DNA of 50,620 bases from contig DRHY01000196.1 of assembly GCA_011052985.1 (NCBI GenBank), positions 1-50,620 of the forward strand, given 5' to 3'. Positions 4,179 to 17,389 of the stretch are shown here, piece after piece. The position numbers and the translations under genes were made by a program. Source of the stretch: Methylophaga thalassica. GTDB taxonomy: Bacteria > Pseudomonadota > Gammaproteobacteria > Nitrosococcales > Methylophagaceae. Numbering within the stretch: position 1 is the stretch's first letter; the number at the start of each line of letters is the position of its first letter. A model generated the notes under the pieces. That model made no database searches, was not told the DNA's origin, and saw only the letters and a program-made list of their open reading frames with translations.

Positions 4179-4719
4179 GTCAATGTTTCGATTGAAGGAT
4201 TATCCAGTCGTACCAGTACTCTTTTCCCAGATTTAGTAAAGCGAATGGCGTTGGAAACTAGGTTAGATATTGCTCTGCGCAATATGGCTTTATCGCCATG
4301 AATTGGTCATGCTTGACCAGCTATGGTTAGTGCGACTTTGTGGTCTTCTGCTAGCGCTTCAAAAAAACCAAACAACGCTTTGACTTCATCGGATAAATCC
4401 AGCGGTGTTTGTTCCAGCTTGACTAAACCGTGTTCGCTTTTTGCTAACCACAACATATCATTAACCATTTTTGCCAAACGTTCTTGTTCTTCCAAATTTG
4501 AGTACAACAATTCACGGTATTCTTCGAGTGTTCTGGATTTGCCTAAGCCAACCTGTCTGTGTCTGGGTGATGAGATTAGTCAGAGGTGTTCGTAGCTCAT
4601 GTGCAATATCAGCTGAAAAATGTGATAGCTGATTAAAGCTATCCTCAAGTCGACCTATCATGTGGTTGAATGAAGACACCAAGTCCTGTAATTCCGATGG
4701 GACAAAAGAGGGGGTCAAG
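4179..4719 (-). pseudogene. Decayed duplicate of the central part of the copper sensor kinase
   Basis: This stretch is near-identical, in the same orientation, to 7651-8193 inside the intact sensor kinase gene. It covers the HAMP end, the H-box ([15 protein letters not shown]) and part of the ATPase domain. It has no start or C-terminus, a 4-base insertion near 4551 that breaks the frame, a short deletion near 4190, and scattered substitutions. Sequence on either side is unrelated to the intact gene. It is a remnant of a second cusS-like gene or of a partial duplication. Confidence 0.88.
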
Positions 4720-4987
4720 GGTACAGCTCGGCACAAAGTTAAGGCAGTACATGCCGCTTACACCCAGTTAATAGTCGGCACTGAACAATCCTTTTAGTCT
4801 AGCTCGGGTGGGTTTTATCACTGACAAAACAATCCATATCACATTGATATTAATTAGAATGATGAATATTTATTAACTATTTCATTGCGAAAATAGTCAG
4901 TTGTTCAGTCGTAGTTCAGTTTCTTTATGATAAAAATGTCTTCAACAATAAAAAGAAATTTGAAATCAACTAGAGAGGTTCTTTCTA

Positions 4988-5431
4988 ATGAACATTATCA
5001 AAACAACAACTGCTGTTATCTTAGGTGCTTCAGCACTTTTTTCTTCCGCTGCAATGGCAGAAGTTCATGAGGTACAAGCTGTGGGGCTGGCATTTAAACC
5101 TTTAGTTTTGAAAGTCCAGCCAGGTGACCAAGTTTCATGGACAAAAATGACCATTCACAACGTTAATACTGAATTTACATCAAATGATGGTGTGAAACAA
5201 TATATTCCTGAAGGTGCAGAAGGCTTTACGTCAAAAATTGGAGAAAACTTCACCAGTGATCCACTTACTGTTGAGGGGGTTTATTTGTATAAATGCGATC
5301 CGCACTGGGGTGCCGGTATGGGTGGCGTAGTTATCGTTGGCGAAGCAACTAACTTACAAAAAATCGTTGACGAAGACCCTAGTGGTGCATTAGGTCGTCT
5401 TGTTAGAAAAACGCAAAAAGCTGTTAAATAA
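4988..5431 (+). CDS. Pseudoazurin-like periplasmic blue copper protein
   Basis: The 147-residue precursor has a Sec signal peptide (cleavage probably after AMA, residue 24). The cupredoxin fold carries a full type-1 copper site: H57 in TIHNV and C103-x2-H106-x4-M111. The spacing and the HNVNTEF and YKCDPHWG contexts match pseudoazurin, a soluble electron carrier for denitrification or other periplasmic redox enzymes. An AGAGAGG ribosome site precedes ATG 4988. It is monocistronic with its own terminator. Here it may exchange electrons with, or buffer copper for, the nearby oxidases; that role is inference. Confidence 0.88.
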   Translation: MNIIKTTTAVILGASALFSSAAMAEVHEVQAVGLAFKPLVLKVQPGDQVSWTKMTIHNVNTEFTSNDGVKQYIPEGAEGFTSKIGENFTSDPLTVEGVYLYKCDPHWGAGMGGVVIVGEATNLQKIVDEDPSGALGRLVRKTQKAVK

Positions 5432-5756: not shown

Positions 5757-7034
5757 CTAACATTGCTGTAAAAGTAGAGGTGCAAATCCACCACCCGGTG
5801 TACGTAAGTTGGTAGCTTGACCTCGATAAAGTCTTGCTGCAGCAAGTAATAACTCCCCTCGGTAGGTATACAATCGCACATCAACCTTAAGCATTTCACG
5901 TTCGTTATCAACCATCACAACACGTTCTGAGGGTGGCACATAGGCCTGTGCAACATAATCACTTTCAAGAATACGTGCAAAGGTGCTTTTAGTCAGCTTG
6001 CTGCCACGATAGACACCCTTACTGCCATGGCCAGCCACCGGTTTAAAAAACCACTGTCGCCGTTGCAGCCAAAGCGATTGCTCATCATATGCATTAACCT
6101 GAATGGTGTGGGGAATACCCTTTTTTAAAAGTTCAGCATTTTCAGCGCTTAACCCCCAATCTATCAGGTTATGTTGATCTGACAGTAAGACCAGATTTCG
6201 CTTATCAGCCAATAGAGCGTGCGTATAGGGATTCGGGGTGATAACGGCACCACCTTCTAACCATGCAGAGCGCAAAGCGGCATGTTCAGGTGCATCTAGT
6301 CCAAAATCGACCAGACGGTTGTATACCAAATCGATTTTCTGTTTATTACCATACAAGACTCCTGATTCGTATTTGAGATCCTTTGGGGAGAGTATGACGG
6401 CATCAATGCCATGTTGGATGAAAAGCCCTTGCGCGAGTTTGAACTCCGGATAGAGATGTTGTTCTTCTGGTGCATCGTCGATGATTGCAATTCGCTCAGG
6501 TTGACCGCTACCTCGCTGGCTTTGCCATTCACTTATAAATTGCGTAATGACCGCTTCATCGAAATCTTTAGCCCAAGATGCCTGTGCACTGCCGCTACAA
6601 CATTTTAGTTGGGCACGAGTCAGAATGGCATTAAGAAAAGCGCCACCGGCATTGGTGTTGATTTCGATAAGACGAGGGCCATCTTCACTCAGGTGGAAAT
6701 CATAGCCCATAAAAGCGCCTACTGGACCGGGATTATGCCGTGCACTCTCAGGTGCCCAAGACATGACCTGTTGCTGATATTCTGCAAGTGATACAGCGGA
6801 TTCAATTGCCTTAACAATCGCCTGCATTTGTTCAAGATCAGAACTTGGAACAAAAATCGCGGCATTTGAGAAGAATTGGCGCATGGCCGAAGTAGACAGG
6901 ATGCCTTCAGGGTTATCGCCCAATTGGTTGTTGAGATCGCGAATAATCGCTGACCAATCTAGAGTAACGCAGGTACAGTGATGGTTTAGCCGTTGTGATC
7001 TTGTCTGCTCTTGAGAACTATCGATGTTTTTCAT
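5757..7034 (-). CDS. ATP-grasp-like protein of unknown product in a copper locus
   Basis: Start ATG 7032-7034 is chosen because GAGGAG lies 5 bases upstream; a start 12 codons earlier has no ribosome site. The 425-residue protein has ATP-grasp-like features: an EINTNAGGAF acid motif, PNPYTHALLADKRNL, a glycine-rich lysine loop FFKPVAGHGSKGVY, VAQAYVPPSE, KVDVRLYTY, and an RTPGGGFAP end. Such enzymes ligate a carboxylate to an amine or thiol using ATP. Cysteines occur as HHCTC near the N-terminus, a CC pair and a C-terminal Cys. It is transcribed separately, opposite the pseudoazurin gene. Substrate unknown; synthesis of a metal-binding peptide or thiol is possible but unproven. Confidence 0.7.
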   Translation of the reverse strand: MKNIDSSQEQTRSQRLNHHCTCVTLDWSAIIRDLNNQLGDNPEGILSTSAMRQFFSNAAIFVPSSDLEQMQAIVKAIESAVSLAEYQQQVMSWAPESARHNPGPVGAFMGYDFHLSEDGPRLIEINTNAGGAFLNAILTRAQLKCCSGSAQASWAKDFDEAVITQFISEWQSQRGSGQPERIAIIDDAPEEQHLYPEFKLAQGLFIQHGIDAVILSPKDLKYESGVLYGNKQKIDLVYNRLVDFGLDAPEHAALRSAWLEGGAVITPNPYTHALLADKRNLVLLSDQHNLIDWGLSAENAELLKKGIPHTIQVNAYDEQSLWLQRRQWFFKPVAGHGSKGVYRGSKLTKSTFARILESDYVAQAYVPPSERVVMVDNEREMLKVDVRLYTYRGELLLAAARLYRGQATNLRTPGGGFAPLLLQQC

Positions 7035-7421
7035 TGATTCTCCTCTATCGGAAAACATTATTAATGCCAACGGTTAGCTTTAATCTTATATGATTAGTTT
7101 GATTAAAGACCGTTATTGCTATCTTTACCAGTCTGCTTAAAGCCCCTTTGTTGGACGTCCTCTATAGTTAAATAGGATGATCATTCTGCCTGAGGCTTCC
7201 ATAATCCTTGTTATAAGCAAAGGAAATCGTGAACACAAAAGAATAATTAACAAAGGCAGGCAAGGCAGAATATAGTTCGTATGCTCTACAAACGGTAAAA
7301 AAATGCCACTCCAATAAGTACAAGTGTTGAAGCTGCGTGAAGCTTTATCTAGTATCTGAAATTGTTAATCACATTATATTTAATGTCGCTGATAGGAATA
7401 ACCACCGACATATCCCAACCA
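7035..7421. other. Intergenic region with a possible small membrane-protein remnant
   Basis: No intact gene is seen. On the minus strand, about 7335 down to 7137, two frames joined by a frameshift read ASTLVLIGVAFF then LPFVEHTNYILPCLPLLII. This resembles the small DUF2933 membrane proteins that often accompany copper genes. The match is weak and there is no clean start. Confidence 0.2.
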
Positions 7422-8831
7422 TCATGGAATATCTTTAATCGTCGTAGGTAAATAGATGATGAATGCAGTCTTATCGCTTTTAGATGTGACTTCTAAACGG
7501 CCACTATGGGCCTCGATGATTGAACGAACAATGGCGAGACCAAGTCCCGCCCCCTCACTTTGTCTTGCCCTGGACGGGTCGACTCGATAGAAACGGTCAA
7601 AGAGATTTGGCAAGTGTTTGGCGGGAATTGCGCTCCCCGGATTTTCAACAGTCAATGAAACCTCATGGTCTGAAGGATTATCCAGTCGTACCAGTACTGT
7701 TTCCCCAGATTTAGTAAAGCGAATGGCGTTAGAAAGTAGGTTAGAAATTGCTCTGCGCAACATGGCTTTATCGCCCAGAATGAGGTGAGCGTGGCCTTCC
7801 TTGGTGAGTGCGATTTTTTTGTCTTCTGCCAAAGCTTCAAAAAAACCGAATAATTCTCTTACTTCATCGGATAAGTCCAGCGGTGTTTGTTCAAGTTTGA
7901 TTAAGCCGTGGTCACTTTTTGCTAACCACAACATATCATTAATCATCTTTGCCAAACGTTCTTGTTCTTCCAAATTTGAGTACAACAATTCACGGTATTC
8001 TTCGAGTGTTCTGGACTTGCCTAAGCCAACCTGTGTCTGGGTGATGAGATTAGTCAGAGGTGTTCGTAGCTCATGTGCAATATCAGCTGAAAAATGTGAT
8101 AGCTGATTAAAGCTATCCTCAAGTCGACCTATCATGTGGTTGAATGAAGACACCAAGTCCTGTAATTCAGATGGGACAAAAGATGGGGCAAGTCGCATAT
8201 CTAGACGATCTGCTTGTATGTCACCCATTTTGTTCGAAAGTCTTCTTATTGGTGCATGCGCTTTGTGAACGCCATACCAAGCAGCCAACAGGGTAACGGC
8301 CCATGTAAGGACCATTATTAACCATAGAGTTAGACGAAATTTATGGAGAAATTGAAGGTGAAAGCCAATATCGATGGCAGTAATAACCAAGTAGTTATGA
8401 CCCCCTATCGTATTGTGCGTGAGGACACCCCGAAATGTCTTATCGTCCGCATGCCAGACTTGTAGGTCACCGGCACTAATTTCTGTAACTTGGCGAATGC
8501 TGTCTTTCACTACTGAAAGGTTTGCGCCGGCACTTTCGAAAACCACCTTACCTTGTTGATTACGTACTTGATAATAGACGCCATGATGTCCAGAGACAGC
8601 ACCGAACAGTGCTTTACTAAGTTGTAAATTGTTGTCGTTATTATTTCGCAATACGTCTATGACAGCCTTATTAATAACGGCAACTTCTTCTGCATCCTGT
8701 TCGGCAAAATGGCGTTCGACCACATTCAGTACAAGGTTGCCAATTAAAAGTAAGCTTAATCCTACAGATGCGCCAACAAAACACATTACCCTTGCGGCGA
8801 GCGAAAGGGGTTTTTGATTATAAGGCTTCAT
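7422..8831 (-). CDS. cusS: Heavy-metal sensor histidine kinase (CusS/CopS type)
   Basis: This 469-residue membrane kinase has TM1 at about 15-36, a periplasmic sensor at 37-165, TM2 at 168-188, a HAMP domain, and an H-box [15 protein letters not shown] with phosphoacceptor H253. An HATPase domain follows with N-box [23 protein letters not shown] and GAGLGLAIV. The family senses periplasmic Cu+ or Ag+. The start overlaps the end of the regulator gene by 14 bases, so the two are one operon. An internal segment is duplicated at 4179-4719. Confidence 0.9.
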
Positions 8832-9510
8832 CGACGGGCTCTACGTCAAGTTTGTAACCCATACCGCGAACCGTATGGATAAGTTTCGGTTCAAAATCGT
8901 CATCAACTTTGGCACGCAGGCGGCGTATCGCCACATCTATCACGTTGGTGTCAGAGTCAAAATTCATGTCCCATACCTGAGAGGCAATCAAAGAGCGTGG
9001 TAGAACCTCACCTTGGCGACGTGCCAATAACTCTAAAAGACAAAACTCTTTGTGGCTAAGATTTATTTTTTTACCTGCTCGCGTAACGCGATGCTTAGGT
9101 AAATCTAAAGTCAGATCAGCTAATTTAAGAAGATCAGAAAAAGTTGAGGGAATGCCTCGGCGCAATAATGTTCTTATCCTTGCTAGAAGTTCGGCAAAGG
9201 CAAAGGGCTTAACTAAATAGTCATCGGCGCCTAATTCTAGGCCTTTAACGCGATCATCCACCGTGTCACGAGCCGTAAGGAATAGTACCGGCGTTTGGCA
9301 TTCTGCTTCACGTAACGACTGCAAGATGCGCCACCCGTCAACATCCGGCAACATAACATCCAGAACGATCAAGTCAAACGCTTCTGTCATTGCCAAATGA
9401 TGACCATCTAGGCCATTTCGAACAAGATTGACCTGAAACCCGGCTTCGCTTAGTCCTTTTTGTAAGTAGTCGCCTGTTTTGACCTCATCCTCCACTAACA
9501 ATAATCGCAT
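8818..9510 (-). CDS. cusR: Copper-responsive OmpR-family response regulator (CusR/CopR type)
   Basis: This 230-residue regulator has a receiver domain (acid pocket E7, D8; phosphoacceptor D51 in [11 protein letters not shown]79; K101) and a C-terminal winged helix with [34 protein letters not shown] ribosome site lies just upstream of ATG 9510. It is divergent from the copA operon, with a 150-bp shared control region carrying inverted repeats, the usual arrangement for direct activation of copper genes by the regulator. Confidence 0.92.
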
Positions 9511-9667
9511 AGATGGATACCCCCTTGAACAACATTCTAATTAGTTTATTAGGTGAATAACGACTACAGGATTACACAAGGATTACGTTTTTGTAATGTT
9601 TTGGTCATCCGGATGACAGGGACGAAAAGTTAACCTTTCACAAAATTGTTGTATTGGAGTGTTGACA
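9511..9667. promoter_or_regulatory. Divergent cusR/copA control region with candidate copper box
   Basis: ATTAC-N6-GTAAT (9582-9597) is an inverted repeat like the cop/cus boxes bound by CopR/CusR. A direct copy of the half-site, ATTAC, lies 11 bases upstream at 9571-9575. A separate perfect 14-bp palindrome, GTCATCCGGATGAC, lies at 9604-9617. I did not find the ATTAC-N6-GTAAT pattern before the other metal genes, so the rightward operon may depend on this one site plus readthrough. Core promoter elements are not clear. Confidence 0.55.
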
Positions 9668-11485
9668 TTGAAGTTACCTATATATCCTATATCTACTTTT
9701 AATCCAACGCGCCGGCGATTCGTACATGGCATAGCCGCTGGTGGTGTGCTGGCAAGCTTCCCAGGCTTATTGTATGCTATGGACAATTCGAAGCAGCTTG
9801 CCTACAGAGGTACTGCTCCAGTCTTAACTGGCCAAACTATTGAGTTGGTTGTCGACCAATCACCTGTTAATTTCACTGGTGTCACGCGTATGGCAACAAC
9901 AATTAATGGCTCCATTCCGGCGCCGACCCTGCGATTACGTGAGGGTGATGAGGTCACCATCCGGGTAATAAACCGACTCAAAGTAGCTACCTCCATTCAT
10001 TGGCATGGGATTATCCTGCCGTATCAAATGGATGGTGTGCCCGGTATTAGCTTCCAGGGCATAGAACCTGGTGAGACGTTCGTTTACCAATTCAAACTTC
10101 AACAAAGTGGCACCTATTGGTATCACTCGCATAGCGGTTTTCAGGAAATGACTGGTATGTATGGTGCATTAATAATTGAACCGCGTGAGGGTCAATCTCT
10201 TGTTGAACAAAGCCATCTAGACGCGGACCGTGACTACGTGATGCAGCTGTCTGATTGGACGGACGAAGATCCCATGGCAGTTTTTTCGAAACTGAAGGTT
10301 GAGAGCGATGTGTATAACTATAATCAGCCTACCGTGCCATCCTTTTTTAGTGATGTCTCAAAGCTGGGATTGATGGGCGCATTTGAAAAACGACAAATGT
10401 GGAACCAAATGCGAATGAACCCGACCGATCTGGCCGATTTATCCTCTGCGACGTTAACTTATCTGATGAATGGCACAACGCCGGCGGGCAACTGGACGGG
10501 ACTGTTCCAACCCGGTGAGCGGGTCAGGCTGCGATTCATTAATGGCGCCAGTAATACATTTTATGATGTCCGTATTCCTGGTCTGAAAATGACGGTCGTT
10601 CAGACCGACGGTCAGAACGTACAACCGGTTAGTGTCGATGAGTTCCGCTTTGGTCCCGGCGAGACTTACGATGTCATGGTTGCGCCACAAAATGACGCGC
10701 ATACCATCTTTGCGCAGAGTATGGATCGCACCGGTTATGCTCGGGGGACGCTGGCCATACATGAAGGACTAACTGATGATGTTCCGGCGCTGGACCCGGT
10801 TAAGTGGCTTACGATGTCCGATATGATGGGTAAGATGAACCATGGCAGTGGTCATGGTTCTGAGCAGAGCACCATGAATCCCTCTGAGATGAATCACAGT
10901 GATATGGCGATGGATCATAGCCAGCATGGCATGAGTCAGAATCCATTGGCGACACCTTCACAAAAAGTGAACCACGCTCGCAGTGAATATGGCCCATCCG
11001 TAGATACGCGGGTTGATATGCCGAATACGAATCTGAATGATCCAGGTGTTGGCTTGAGAGACAATGGCCGGCGGGTACTCACTTTGTCAGATCTTCGTTC
11101 CGTGGACGGTGTTCTTAATGATACACGGGTGCCAATCCGCGAATTCGAACTGCACCTTACCGGTAATATGGAGCGATACAGCTGGTCTTTTGATGGGCTG
11201 GAATTTGGTAAAAGTACACCGGTACATTTGCCTCACAATGAACGTATACGAATCATTCTGCAAAATGACACCATGATGACGCATCCCATGCATTTGCACG
11301 GCATGTGGAGTGATCTCGAAGATGACCAAGGCAATATGCTGGTACGCCGGCACACCATACCGGTGCAACCTGCACAACGCATCAGTTTTCTGACAACACC
11401 TCATGATCTAGGGCGTTGGGCTTGGCATTGCCACTTATTATTTCATATGGATGCGGGCATGTTCCGCGAAGTGGTGGTGTCATGA
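9668..11485 (+). CDS. copA: CopA-type multicopper oxidase 1
   Basis: About 605 residues. No ATG is available; TTG 9668 is preferred because GGAG (9656-9659) lies 8 bases upstream, with TTG 9662 and GTG 9659 as alternatives. A Tat signal (TRRRFVHGIAAGG) sends the folded protein to the periplasm. Copper-site motifs are all present: HWHGIILP near 114, WYHSHSG near 155, HPMHLHG near 542 and HCHLLFHMDAGM near 590. A Met/His-rich insert (around residues 387-430, MNHS/DHSQHGM repeats) binds extra copper. The family oxidises Cu+ and sequesters copper. First gene of the operon; its stop overlaps copB by ATGA. Confidence 0.93.
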   Translation: MKLPIYPISTFNPTRRRFVHGIAAGGVLASFPGLLYAMDNSKQLAYRGTAPVLTGQTIELVVDQSPVNFTGVTRMATTINGSIPAPTLRLREGDEVTIRVINRLKVATSIHWHGIILPYQMDGVPGISFQGIEPGETFVYQFKLQQSGTYWYHSHSGFQEMTGMYGALIIEPREGQSLVEQSHLDADRDYVMQLSDWTDEDPMAVFSKLKVESDVYNYNQPTVPSFFSDVSKLGLMGAFEKRQMWNQMRMNPTDLADLSSATLTYLMNGTTPAGNWTGLFQPGERVRLRFINGASNTFYDVRIPGLKMTVVQTDGQNVQPVSVDEFRFGPGETYDVMVAPQNDAHTIFAQSMDRTGYARGTLAIHEGLTDDVPALDPVKWLTMSDMMGKMNHGSGHGSEQSTMNPSEMNHSDMAMDHSQHGMSQNPLATPSQKVNHARSEYGPSVDTRVDMPNTNLNDPGVGLRDNGRRVLTLSDLRSVDGVLNDTRVPIREFELHLTGNMERYSWSFDGLEFGKSTPVHLPHNERIRIILQNDTMMTHPMHLHGMWSDLEDDQGNMLVRRHTIPVQPAQRISFLTTPHDLGRWAWHCHLLFHMDAGMFREVVVS

Positions 11486-13464: not shown

Positions 13465-15240
13465 ATGGCAAATTCAGTTGAAGAGAATCGTAGACGTTTT
13501 ATTAAATCTGCCATTGGGACAGCTTCAGCCCTTGTTTTAGCCAAAATGGCGCCGGCATGGGCTTATCCACTGGGTCGAAGCTATGGTGATGTTATTTATG
13601 CGCAGAATGTGGTCGATCTGCATATTCGCCGTGAAGATATGAATGTTGCTGGACGGATTGCTAGACCGATAACTATCAACGGTAGTATGCCCGGACCACT
13701 TATTAGGCTGAAAGAAGGACAACGAGCCAAGTTACATGTTAGTAATGCGTTGGATGAGTCTACGTCTATCCATTGGCATGGAATCATTCTGCCAGAAAAT
13801 ATGGATGGCGTGCCTGGCGTCAGTTTTCCTGGGATCAAGGCTGGAGAGTCATATCATTACGAATATGATGTTCAGCAAAGTGGTACTTACTGGTATCACA
13901 GCCACTCGGGATTGCAGGAACAGTTAGGTCATTTTGGGCCACTTGTAATTGACCCAGCGGATGGTGATATTGGCGCAGATCGGGAACATGTGATTATCCT
14001 GAGTGATTGGACCTTTGAAGATCCAGACGAGGTGTTCCGAAATCTCAAGGTAGCCGAGGGTTATTACAACTACCAGCAGCGAACCTTGGGTGACACTTTC
14101 GACGATATTCGTCGACAAGGGCTTGCGAAAACATGGCAAGAGCGGTCCATGTGGAACGAAATGCGCATGAGCGCGCGCGATCTTCTGGATGTGACCGGCT
14201 CTACCTATACCTATCTGATGAATGGTCGCGATAATTCGACTAACTGGACGGCACTTTACAAGCCAGGAGAAAAAATTCGTTTAAGAATCATTAATGGCTC
14301 TGCCATGTCGTTCTTTGATTTTCGCATTCCGGGTCTCGAGATGACGGTGGTCTCTGCAGACGGCCAGCCTATCAAGCCTGTTACGGTAGATGAATTTCGA
14401 ATTGGGGTGGCTGAGACATACGATGTCATTGTAACGCCGAAAAACGATCGTCCTTATACGCTTTTTGCGGAAAGCATGGATCGTAGTGGTTATGTGCGTG
14501 GTACGCTCGCGACAGAATTAGGGCAGGAAGTGCCTGTGCCTGAATTGCGACCGGTACCAGAGCGAGGGATGGCGGCCATGGGGATGAGCCATGAAATGGG
14601 TGGGATGGACATGATAACCACCAATGAAGATCAACTTGGGATGGATGACCATCAAGAAATGTCCGGGGGCCATGGTGGGCATAAGGCTGCGACGCAACAG
14701 CGACCTTCGGCGCCAGATCTTGGCATTGAACATGCGCCAGGTGGTCATGGTCCCGGTGCTGCCATGATTGCTAGAAACCCAGTCAGCCGTCTAAATGAGC
14801 CGGGTATTGGCCTCGAGAATGTCGACCATCGAGTTCTGGTCTATGGCGACCTTATTGGGGCTCACCCATGGCCTGATGATAGGGAGCCGGAGCGTGACAT
14901 CGAGCTGCATCTCACCGGTAATATGGAAAAATATATGTGGTCTTTTGATGGTGTGAAATACACTGAGGTCAATGGACCTGTGGAGTTTCATCATGGTGAG
15001 CGTCTGCGTTTGATAATGGTAAACGACACGATGATGGATCATCCGATTCATCTGCATGGCATGTGGATGGAACTTGAAAATGGCCAATATCCCCGTCCTC
15101 GAAAGCACACTATAAGCCTCAAACCAAGTGAGGTCGTTTCATTGCAAATCAGTGCCGATGCACCCGGCAGTTGGGCTTTCCATTGTCATCTTCTATATCA
15201 CATGAAGGCGGGGATGTTTCGAGTTGTCAGGGTCAGATAA
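13465..15240 (+). CDS. copA: CopA-type multicopper oxidase 2
   Basis: 591 residues with a Tat signal (RRRFIKSAIGTASALVL). Motifs are SIHWHGIILP (H103, H105), WYHSHSG, HPIHLHG and HCHLLYHMKAGM (type-1 ligands C574, H579, M584). Its Met/His-rich insert (about residues 370-435) has MGMSHEMGGMDM and HQEMSGGHGGH and differs clearly from that of oxidase 1. The two oxidases align along their length but are well diverged, so this is a paralogue rather than a recent copy. AGGAGA precedes ATG 13465. A second copB follows 9 bases later. Confidence 0.92.
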   Translation: MANSVEENRRRFIKSAIGTASALVLAKMAPAWAYPLGRSYGDVIYAQNVVDLHIRREDMNVAGRIARPITINGSMPGPLIRLKEGQRAKLHVSNALDESTSIHWHGIILPENMDGVPGVSFPGIKAGESYHYEYDVQQSGTYWYHSHSGLQEQLGHFGPLVIDPADGDIGADREHVIILSDWTFEDPDEVFRNLKVAEGYYNYQQRTLGDTFDDIRRQGLAKTWQERSMWNEMRMSARDLLDVTGSTYTYLMNGRDNSTNWTALYKPGEKIRLRIINGSAMSFFDFRIPGLEMTVVSADGQPIKPVTVDEFRIGVAETYDVIVTPKNDRPYTLFAESMDRSGYVRGTLATELGQEVPVPELRPVPERGMAAMGMSHEMGGMDMITTNEDQLGMDDHQEMSGGHGGHKAATQQRPSAPDLGIEHAPGGHGPGAAMIARNPVSRLNEPGIGLENVDHRVLVYGDLIGAHPWPDDREPERDIELHLTGNMEKYMWSFDGVKYTEVNGPVEFHHGERLRLIMVNDTMMDHPIHLHGMWMELENGQYPRPRKHTISLKPSEVVSLQISADAPGSWAFHCHLLYHMKAGMFRVVRVR

Positions 15241-15249
15241 GGAGATGAT

Positions 15250-15999
15250 ATGAACAAACTTACAACCATGACAATGCTCGGTTTTTTAGGAATGAGCACC
15301 ACGGTCTCTGCCGATCACGCTGAGGATCATTGGCCCGAACCCATTGAGTCTTACCGAACCGGGCAGGTTTTATTTGATCGGCTGGAATTCACCCGTACAG
15401 ACAACAATGAGAACCTAATCGTCTGGGATATGTTGGCTTGGTACGGTGGCGACACAAATCGGGTTTATTTTAAAAGTGAAGGTGAGAATAAACAAAATGA
15501 TGGTGAACCCACTGAACTGGAAAGTACGGAGGTGTTGGCGAGCCGGTTAATTGCTCCTTTTTGGGAAATACAGGGCGGCGTTGGACTTCGTGGATCAATG
15601 GCATCGGATACCGATCGTGAACACTATCTAGTATTTAGCCTGTTTGGCATGGCTCCCTATCGATTTGAAATGGATAATTCACTTACCATTAATGAAGATG
15701 GCGACATAGCAGCGTCACTTGAAGCCGAATACGACATTCGCCTCAGTCAAGTTTCGTACTTACAGCCACGCTTGGAAGTTTCTGCTGGACTCACAGATGC
15801 CCAAGCGTTCGATCGCCCTAGTGGATTCAACGATGTTCGAATAGGACTGCGTTATCGCTATGAAATCTCTAGAGAGTTTGCGCCTTACATAGGTGTTTAT
15901 TGGAGCCGGGCCTTGGGTCAAAAGGCTAACCAAATCGCTGATGAGGGGGGCGATAAAATCGAAACTGGTTTTGTTGCTGGGGTTCGGATGTGGTTTTAA
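15250..15999 (+). CDS. copB: CopB-type outer-membrane copper resistance protein 2
   Basis: The 249-residue precursor has a short signal peptide (to about VSA, residue 21) and then a CopB domain (SYRTGQVLFDRLEFTR ... TGFVAGVRMWF) ending in phenylalanine. It lacks the long Met/His-rich N-terminal stretch of the first CopB. A GGAG ribosome site (15240-15243) precedes ATG 15250, 9 bases after the oxidase stop. It shares blocks such as RYRYEISREFAPYIGV with the first copy (RLRYEFTRQFAPYVGV). Confidence 0.88.
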   Translation: MNKLTTMTMLGFLGMSTTVSADHAEDHWPEPIESYRTGQVLFDRLEFTRTDNNENLIVWDMLAWYGGDTNRVYFKSEGENKQNDGEPTELESTEVLASRLIAPFWEIQGGVGLRGSMASDTDREHYLVFSLFGMAPYRFEMDNSLTINEDGDIAASLEAEYDIRLSQVSYLQPRLEVSAGLTDAQAFDRPSGFNDVRIGLRYRYEISREFAPYIGVYWSRALGQKANQIADEGGDKIETGFVAGVRMWF

Positions 16000-16039
16000 T
16001 TAGAATTGCAAAATTAGCAAGACTGAAGGGGGAGAGTTA

Positions 16040-17389
16040 ATGGCTAACAAAGAGGACAGATCAACGCATTATAAAGAGGGAAGCCTCACTTTAGCGGGAA
16101 CAGTTATGCTCGGTACCGGGGTTATGATTGGTGCTGGTATCTTTGCGCTTACCGGGCAGATGGCGCAGATGACTGGGGCGCTGTTCCCGCTGGCTTTTCT
16201 CGCTGCAGCAGTAATCGTCAGCTTTAGTGCCTATTCCTACATCAAGATCTCTAACGCTTATCCCTCTGCAGGTGGCATTGGCATGTATTTGCATAAAGCT
16301 TATGGAGACAGGTTACCAACAGCATTTAATGCTTTGCTGATGTATTTTTCAATGGTGATCGCCCAGAGCTTTCTCGCGCGCACATTTGGTTCTTATACCA
16401 TGCAACTTTTTGGTGGGGACCAGAGCGGCATGATGGTGCCCATTCTCGGGGTGTCACTTATCCTGGCAGCCTTTCTGATTAATCTATCAGGTAATCGATT
16501 GATCCAAGGCGTCGCCTCTTTTATTGGTGTTTTGAAAATCGTGGGCATCCTTGTTATCGGATTGGTAGGGGTTTGGATCGCCGATAGCATTTCAGTCGAT
16601 TTCACAAGCCCAGGAGAAGCAGGGACCTTCAGTAACTTTCTTGGCGCAACAGCACTCGGGATATTAGCGTTTAAGGGCTTTACCACCATTACCAACAGCG
16701 GTTCGGAGGTAAAAGATCCTAAACGAAACGTGGGTCGCGCCATCGTTATTTCCATCGCCGCTTGTGTGGTGATTTATAGCTTGGTCGGTTTTGCTGTGGC
16801 AAGCAATTTGTCGCTGGCTGAAATCATCAAAACTCAGGACTATTCTCTTGCTGCAGCAGCGCGCCCGGCATTGGGTGAATATGGTGTGTGGTTTACGGTC
16901 GCTATTGCCATGATGGCGACTGCCGGCGGTATTCTAGCCAGCATTTTTGCAGTCTCAAGAATGCTGGCAATGCTGACGGAAATGAAACTGGTGCCACACC
17001 GTCATTTCGGCATGCCCGGTAGTATTCAAAAGCACACGTTGGTATACACTGTGGTTCTGGGACTGATCCTGACAGCATTTTTTGATCTGTCCCGGATTGC
17101 CGCGCTTGGTATCGTGTTTTACCTGATTATGGACATTGCCATTCATTGGGGCGTTCTTCGCTATCTGCGTGAAGACATAAAAGCTAATCGATGGGTGCCA
17201 GCGACAGCCATTCTGCTGGATTTACTGGCATTGGGTGGTTTTGTCTGGGTTAAGCTGAATACTGATCCGTTTGTGATTGGTGTGGCGGTTGTTACGATGA
17301 TTGTTATCGCAGTTGCTGAGCAGATTTTCCTGAAAAGATCCGCTGCATCCGAGCAGCCCGGTAATCAGGAATCCCATCATCACCATTAA
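16040..17389 (+). CDS. APC-superfamily permease with short His tail
   Basis: This 449-residue inner-membrane protein has about 12 hydrophobic segments. The APC signature is near the N-terminus (GTGVMIGAGIFALTGQMA), with GFTTITNSGSEVKDPKRN typical of amino-acid or cation permeases. It ends in SHHHH, possibly metal-binding. GGGGGAGAG precedes ATG 16040. It sits between copB and the copper ATPase, and its stop overlaps a possible start of the next gene. Substrate unknown; amino acid uptake to support thiol or metal-ligand supply, or metal-complex transport, are guesses. Confidence 0.78.
   Translation: MANKEDRSTHYKEGSLTLAGTVMLGTGVMIGAGIFALTGQMAQMTGALFPLAFLAAAVIVSFSAYSYIKISNAYPSAGGIGMYLHKAYGDRLPTAFNALLMYFSMVIAQSFLARTFGSYTMQLFGGDQSGMMVPILGVSLILAAFLINLSGNRLIQGVASFIGVLKIVGILVIGLVGVWIADSISVDFTSPGEAGTFSNFLGATALGILAFKGFTTITNSGSEVKDPKRNVGRAIVISIAACVVIYSLVGFAVASNLSLAEIIKTQDYSLAAAARPALGEYGVWFTVAIAMMATAGGILASIFAVSRMLAMLTEMKLVPHRHFGMPGSIQKHTLVYTVVLGLILTAFFDLSRIAALGIVFYLIMDIAIHWGVLRYLREDIKANRWVPATAILLDLLALGGFVWVKLNTDPFVIGVAVVTMIVIAVAEQIFLKRSAASEQPGNQESHHHH

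Follow-up and report, generated by a model that had tools for sequence, protein, structure and literature searches.

A gene within a copper-resistance locus of Methylophaga thalassica encodes a 425-residue ligase that, judged by its sequence relationships, has the domain order of eukaryotic-type glutathione synthetase (GSS), and relatives of this gene are linked to copper genes beyond background. We propose, with a probability of roughly 0.4, that the copper-associated members of this family are ATP-dependent ligases that act on a thiol resembling gamma-Glu-Cys and yield a cytosolic Cu(I) ligand, with four conserved cysteines (the Cys4 signature) serving as a metal site. In this proposal we infer what the substrate and the product are and what the cysteines do. 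The gene is located in the window, by which we mean the whole stretch of 50,620 nucleotides that was analyzed (contig DRHY01000196.1 of assembly GCA_011052985.1), in the following setting.

4988 to 5431, plus strand: pseudoazurin/plastocyanin-family cupredoxin
5757 to 7034, minus strand: ligase gene, 425 amino acids; predicted circularly permuted ATP-grasp, glutathione-synthetase-like
7066 to 7119, minus strand: leader inverted repeat, AACGGTCTTTAATC...GATTAAAGCTAACCGTT, directly 5′ of the ligase ribosome-binding site
7422 to 8831, minus strand: CusS-type heavy-metal sensor kinase, upstream of the ligase on the same strand
8818 to 9510, minus strand: CusR-type response regulator
9659 to 11485, plus strand: CopA multicopper oxidase, first copy
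13465 to 17389, plus strand: second CopA multicopper oxidase, CopB and an APC-family permease

The gene is intact and under selection. Its reading frame runs without internal stops from an ATG at 7034 to a TAG at 5757-5759 and is preceded by a GGAG ribosome-binding site, which bears out the original prediction of a full-length gene between pseudoazurin and cusS. It lies 387 nucleotides downstream of cusRS, which has the same orientation, with pseudoazurin adjoining, and no signal peptide was seen in the 425-residue product. Among relatives in Methylophaga and Halomonas for which synonymous sites are unsaturated, omega ranges from 0.07 to 0.19, indicating strong purifying selection. The leader inverted repeat folds better than shuffled sequences (z = −3.2) and is kept among close Methylophaga copies of the ligase. 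It is possible that this element is an operator or a leader structure; a search of Rfam found no RNA element.

Two other features of the window are recorded here. The region from about 4300 to 4740, next to pseudoazurin, closely resembles part of cusS, and its antisense reading frame at 4323-4595 is nearly the same as the one at window positions 7801-8106; the region seems to be a shortened second copy of the sensor gene. A RES/Xre-type toxin-antitoxin pair occupies positions 128-1137, and such a pair is also found beside the copper locus on a Methylophaga thalassica plasmid.

The closest relative of the ligase, 99.5% identical and with the same gene order, belongs to a Methylophaga thalassica plasmid of 320 kb, and hence a plasmid of this kind is most likely the source of the window contig. 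Homologues were found on 33 plasmid records and in many genomes, with identities of 43-94% on about 30 other plasmids. The bearers include plasmids from isolates of Moraxella and Pseudomonas that are human-associated, and others from soil and sea bacteria. Within Methylophaga the gene is accessory, being carried by a minority of genomes in the genus. A paralogue with 71% identity resides at a second copper locus of the same genome, where it adjoins genes for cytochrome c, an APC permease, CopB and CopA. The description of the ligase as an orphan was thus mistaken in one sense, as the gene turns up repeatedly in copper loci. Our literature search, for which subscription journals were mostly outside the scope, turned up no paper on the family, and a search of viral contigs for further family sequences yielded nothing beyond one locus.

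Some family members depart from the usual form. The ligase on a Vreelandella sulfidaeris plasmid (locus L034, 8678-10085) is split into several frames, and four decayed relatives (L019-L022; for example G006:C1:1832783-1833197 and G021:C91:10532-10949) carry several stops at about 35-50% identity, which we read as remnants of another type of ligase copy. A C-terminal extension of about 100-150 residues is present in some beta- and gammaproteobacterial members (L033, L042, L043 and L044).

The association with copper is evident at several levels. A copper-type gene is present within 8.5 kb of 30 of the 35 members with the Cys4 signature versus one of the 15 without the full signature, where the loci are related rather than independent, the marker proteins were partly drawn from these same loci, and one member with a long reading frame and both cysteine motifs (L118) is counted among the 35. 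The relatedness of the loci also means that the Fisher value for this contrast does not express a probability. The sole copper-scored member without full Cys4 owes its score to a regulator of the MerR family that belongs to a mercury operon. With markers taken from the window only (CopA, CopB, P1B ATPase, CusA and pseudoazurin), the counts are 26/35 versus 0/15. On the plasmids themselves, copper genes accompany all six ligase stretches and only one of six control stretches located far away on the same molecules. Chromosomal members are linked to copper genes too. In several loci the ligase begins less than 150 nucleotides after a gene for a P1B ATPase, CusA or a DUF305 protein, which suggests co-transcription. 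Small Met/His-rich proteins and DUF305 genes recur in ligase loci. Some members adjoin mercury genes or a CDF gene, and others have no metal-related neighbor. No single partner gene was constant across the loci. The APC permease, once suggested as a supplier of an amino acid, was rejected as an obligatory partner, since it is present in a minority of loci only.

Curated families do not account for this protein. No Pfam or NCBIfam model accepts the window ligase above its cut-off, and it falls in no known housekeeping family; the best Pfam match of this sequence alone is to ATP-grasp_3 (E = 0.013, below cut-off), and the PDB yielded no significant match to either a sequence or a profile query. 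It is unmatched by TIGR01380 (GshB) and, up to E = 1, by PF14403 (CP_ATPgrasp_2), whose gathering score is 32 bits; a sister-clade member (see below) reaches 21 bits against this model. Across 22 diverse members, conserved motifs span the full length of the protein. When these members were scanned singly, weak matches to CP_ATPgrasp_2 appeared in nine (best E = 4.8e-6) and weak matches to YheCD in 15, and none matched the GSS models PF03917 or PF03199 up to E = 1.

Profile-profile comparisons, in which each E-value refers to a single comparison and is not equivalent to a database E-value, are more informative. Against a profile of six eukaryotic-type glutathione synthetase sequences, the family is collinear over 309 columns (probability 95.9, E = 6e-9). 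Against diverse GshB sequences, the C-terminal half alone aligns, to the first three quarters of GshB, with probabilities of 94-95; a GshB profile restricted to a single genus showed no such signal, which came with the diverse set. The E-x-N segment, which is C-terminal in GshB, lies near the N-terminus of the ligase (residues 123-131), such that E124 and N126 precede K331 and the glycine loop in the motif order of permuted ATP-grasp proteins. The short N-terminal piece alone did not match the GshB C-terminus significantly, and rotating the family alignment gave a GshB score no higher than that of the unrotated one. The assignment of a permutation therefore rests on the half-by-half result with GshB and on the collinearity with GSS. 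Eukaryotic glutathione synthetase itself differs from the bacterial enzyme by a circular permutation. An AlphaFold2 model from four sequences had a pLDDT of 43 and a pTM of 0.33, values too low for the model to be relied upon. The profile comparisons show, at the level of sequence, the relationship of the ligase to circularly permuted ATP-grasp proteins ordered as in GSS, the final enzyme of glutathione synthesis. The original prediction of an ATP-grasp-like ligase was right, although weakly founded when a single sequence is considered, and its central suspicion, that the ligase is undescribed and associated with copper, is upheld.

In a maximum-likelihood tree of 69 sequences, 45 rows form a copper clade (support 97/96), 18 rows belonging to further classes within the phylum form a sister clade, and six form a distant group. 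Ten residues, D112, E124, N126, R240, K278, K331, Q363, D385, R387 and R401, are conserved in all three groups and are expected to handle Mg, ATP and phosphate. The main motifs, all encoded on the minus strand, are listed below.

6969 to 6977, minus strand: C20-T-C22, the Cys4 signature on its N-terminal side; conserved in 95% of the copper clade
6642 to 6701, minus strand: D112-F-H...E124-I-N126-T-N128-A-G-G131, predicted Mg/ATP-phosphate ligands, N-terminal through permutation
6597 to 6602, minus strand: C145-C146, the remaining pair of the Cys4 signature; likewise conserved in 95% of the copper clade
6003 to 6044, minus strand: K331-P-V-A-G-H-G-S-K-G-V-Y-R-G344, predicted ATP-binding lysine and glycine-rich loop, aligning with the ATP loop of GshB and GSS
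5874 to 5888, minus strand: K383-x-D385-x-R387 core motif, invariant in the copper and sister clades
5778 to 5834, minus strand: R401-x-Y-x-G-Q-x-T-N-x-R-T-P-G-G-G-F-A-P419, predicted acceptor/ATP region

Residues D112, E124, N126 and N128 are invariant in all 69 rows, E124 and N126 align with the E-x-N of GSS, and the C-terminal motif from R401 to P419 varies little or not at all within the copper clade. The four cysteines C20, C22, C145 and C146 are each present in about 95% of the copper clade and are absent from the sister clade and the distant group. Of the cysteines to which attention was initially drawn, those in HHCTC (C20 and C22) and CC (C145 and C146) are thus conserved in the copper clade, whereas the terminal cysteine is not. 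The copper-clade members lacking both cysteine motifs (L011, L088 and L089) are located among ordinary chromosomal genes.

The sister-clade ligase is chromosomal and near-universal in genomes of two other proteobacterial classes, which we take to be Zetaproteobacteria and Magnetococcia. Among 59 genomes scored for both proteins, GshB is detected above cut-off in 0/30 with the sister-clade ligase and in 27/29 without it, a contrast that is confounded with taxonomic class. A full-length GshB-like protein scoring below the cut-off is present in two of the sister-clade genomes (G099 and G129). GshA (TIGR01436, an NCBIfam equivalog) is above cut-off in all six sister-clade genomes checked, and GSS of the eukaryotic type occurs rarely in this phylum (2 of 150). 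Because GshA is kept where GshB is absent above cut-off, the simplest reading predicts that the sister clade is a displaced glutathione synthetase, and it may thus be the missing glutathione enzyme of these two classes. The candidates are the following.

L109, 7850 to 8923; L110, 7515 to 8588; also L105-L108: sister-clade ligases, candidate missing glutathione synthetase

In two f70 genomes, the sister-clade ligase lies beside TIGR04283 and TIGR04282 glycosyltransferases (L109, 8874-10198; L110, 6228-7525), which are labelled as arsenosugar biosynthesis proteins; no arsenic gene was noticed nearby at either locus. The ligase gene of f74 and f91 genomes shares an overlap with a gene for an MFS transporter (L106, 3218-5544; L107, 7651-9955), and this transporter could be an exporter of whatever the ligase makes. 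The distant group (L012-L017) belongs to family f2 of the same order. Among its genomes, G062 has GshA without GshB above cut-off, and G060 and G061 also have GshB.

Our proposal for the copper clade can be outlined as follows. The protein would be a cytosolic ATP-dependent carboxylate-amine ligase with permuted ATP-grasp order. Its substrate would most likely be gamma-Glu-Cys or another small thiol peptide of that kind, whose C-terminal carboxylate would be activated as an acyl phosphate and joined to glycine or to another amino acid or amine. The product, glutathione or an analogue, would bind Cu(I) in the cytosol and thereby aid the copper ATPase and efflux systems encoded alongside. The C20-x-C22/C145-C146 signature would probably create a soft-metal site that serves for Cu(I) gating of the enzyme or for protection from copper. 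That the ligase might build a thiol ligand for copper had been suggested at the outset, and the idea gains support because the domain order appears to be that of a glutathione synthetase. Counting against the proposal, the genus Methylophaga already has GshA and GshB, so a second synthetase would be unneeded for basal glutathione. The copper-clade enzyme would therefore be expected either to make a different thiol or to be a copper-proof or copper-gated isozyme, and the Cys4 signature fits the latter option. A more ambitious claim, that the family is a third, unrecognised type of bacterial synthetase for glutathione or an analogue, with one branch replacing GshB and a plasmid-borne, copper-gated Cys4 branch spreading with copper-resistance islands, strikes us as rather unlikely.

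It is conceivable, though we think it unlikely, that the enzyme instead makes a metabolite that is not a thiol, such as a conjugate of a polyamine or amino acid comparable to the products of glutathionylspermidine synthetase (GspS) and amidoligases. The family does have a weak collinear match to GspS, and the gamma-Glu contacts of GSS are unconserved, but the GSS match exceeds the GspS match in the same test, and the sister clade appears to replace GshB where GshA is kept. About equally unlikely is a peptide or protein ligase of the RimK or graspetide kind whose target is a copper protein from a neighboring gene. Proteins are common substrates of ATP-grasp ligases, and Met/His-rich small proteins and DUF305 genes recur in the loci. 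However, the earlier suggestion that a neighboring Cys/Met-rich protein is modified lost ground because no partner is constant across loci; moreover, the domain order is GSS-like rather than RimK-like, and the sister clade exists without copper partners.

The confinement of Cys4 to the copper-linked clade could alternatively mean that the protein binds metal or regulates, having kept the ligase fold and lost catalysis. This is improbable given that D112, E124, N126, K278, K331, D385, R387 and R401 are invariant or nearly so and that omega is low. Least credible of all is that the ligase simply rides on plasmids and serves in stress generally, its tie to copper reflecting only the crowding of resistance genes on large plasmids. 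Some members do lie near mercury genes, a CDF gene or no metal gene, but the disparity between ligase and control stretches of the same plasmids, the linkage in chromosomal members and the position directly after copper genes in several loci all argue against it.

Bacterial copper resistance is usually described in terms of efflux, oxidation and periplasmic binding. If our proposal for the copper clade is correct, then a mobile, dedicated enzyme for a cytosolic copper ligand would represent a new arm of this resistance. For the sister clade, the presence of GshA and the absence of GshB in two classes define a gap that provides a testable prediction.

Among known systems, GSS (PF03199/PF03917; PDB 2HGS, 1M0T and 5OES) shares the permuted ATP-grasp order with the ligase, and the E-x-N segment, R240, K278 and K331 (ligase numbering) correspond between the two. 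Identity is about 16%, and the four clade-specific cysteines belong to the copper clade of the ligase. In human GSS, we take R125 and S149/S151 to be contacts to gamma-Glu-Cys and E368 to be a metal ligand. R125 aligns with G110 of the ligase, S149/S151 align with A129/G131, and E368 aligns with the region of G335, so neither the contacts nor the metal-ligand position is conserved, and the true substrate of the ligase may differ on account of the contacts. GshB (TIGR01380) shares the ATP-grasp core, its N-terminal and central parts corresponding to the C-terminal half of the ligase, but it is unpermuted, and Methylophaga has a separate, ordinary GshB. CP_ATPgrasp_2 (PF14403) is likewise a permuted ATP-grasp, to which individual members match weakly; the genome of the window also encodes a true PF14403 protein elsewhere. 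The glutathionylspermidine synthetase domain (PF03738) gives a weak collinear profile match of low probability (60 local, 75 global) and no Pfam match.

With respect to physiology, glutathione (gshA) contributes to copper tolerance in Cupriavidus metallidurans and is also reported to assist it in Escherichia coli, although the same article argues against a simple cytosolic pool of copper-complexing glutathione in the former species (PMC10304878). In the portions considered here, synthesis is assigned to the ordinary gshA and gshB genes with no mention of a permuted ligase, and the cytosolic thiol of Cupriavidus metallidurans works alongside the Cop, Cus and P1B systems (PMC10304878).
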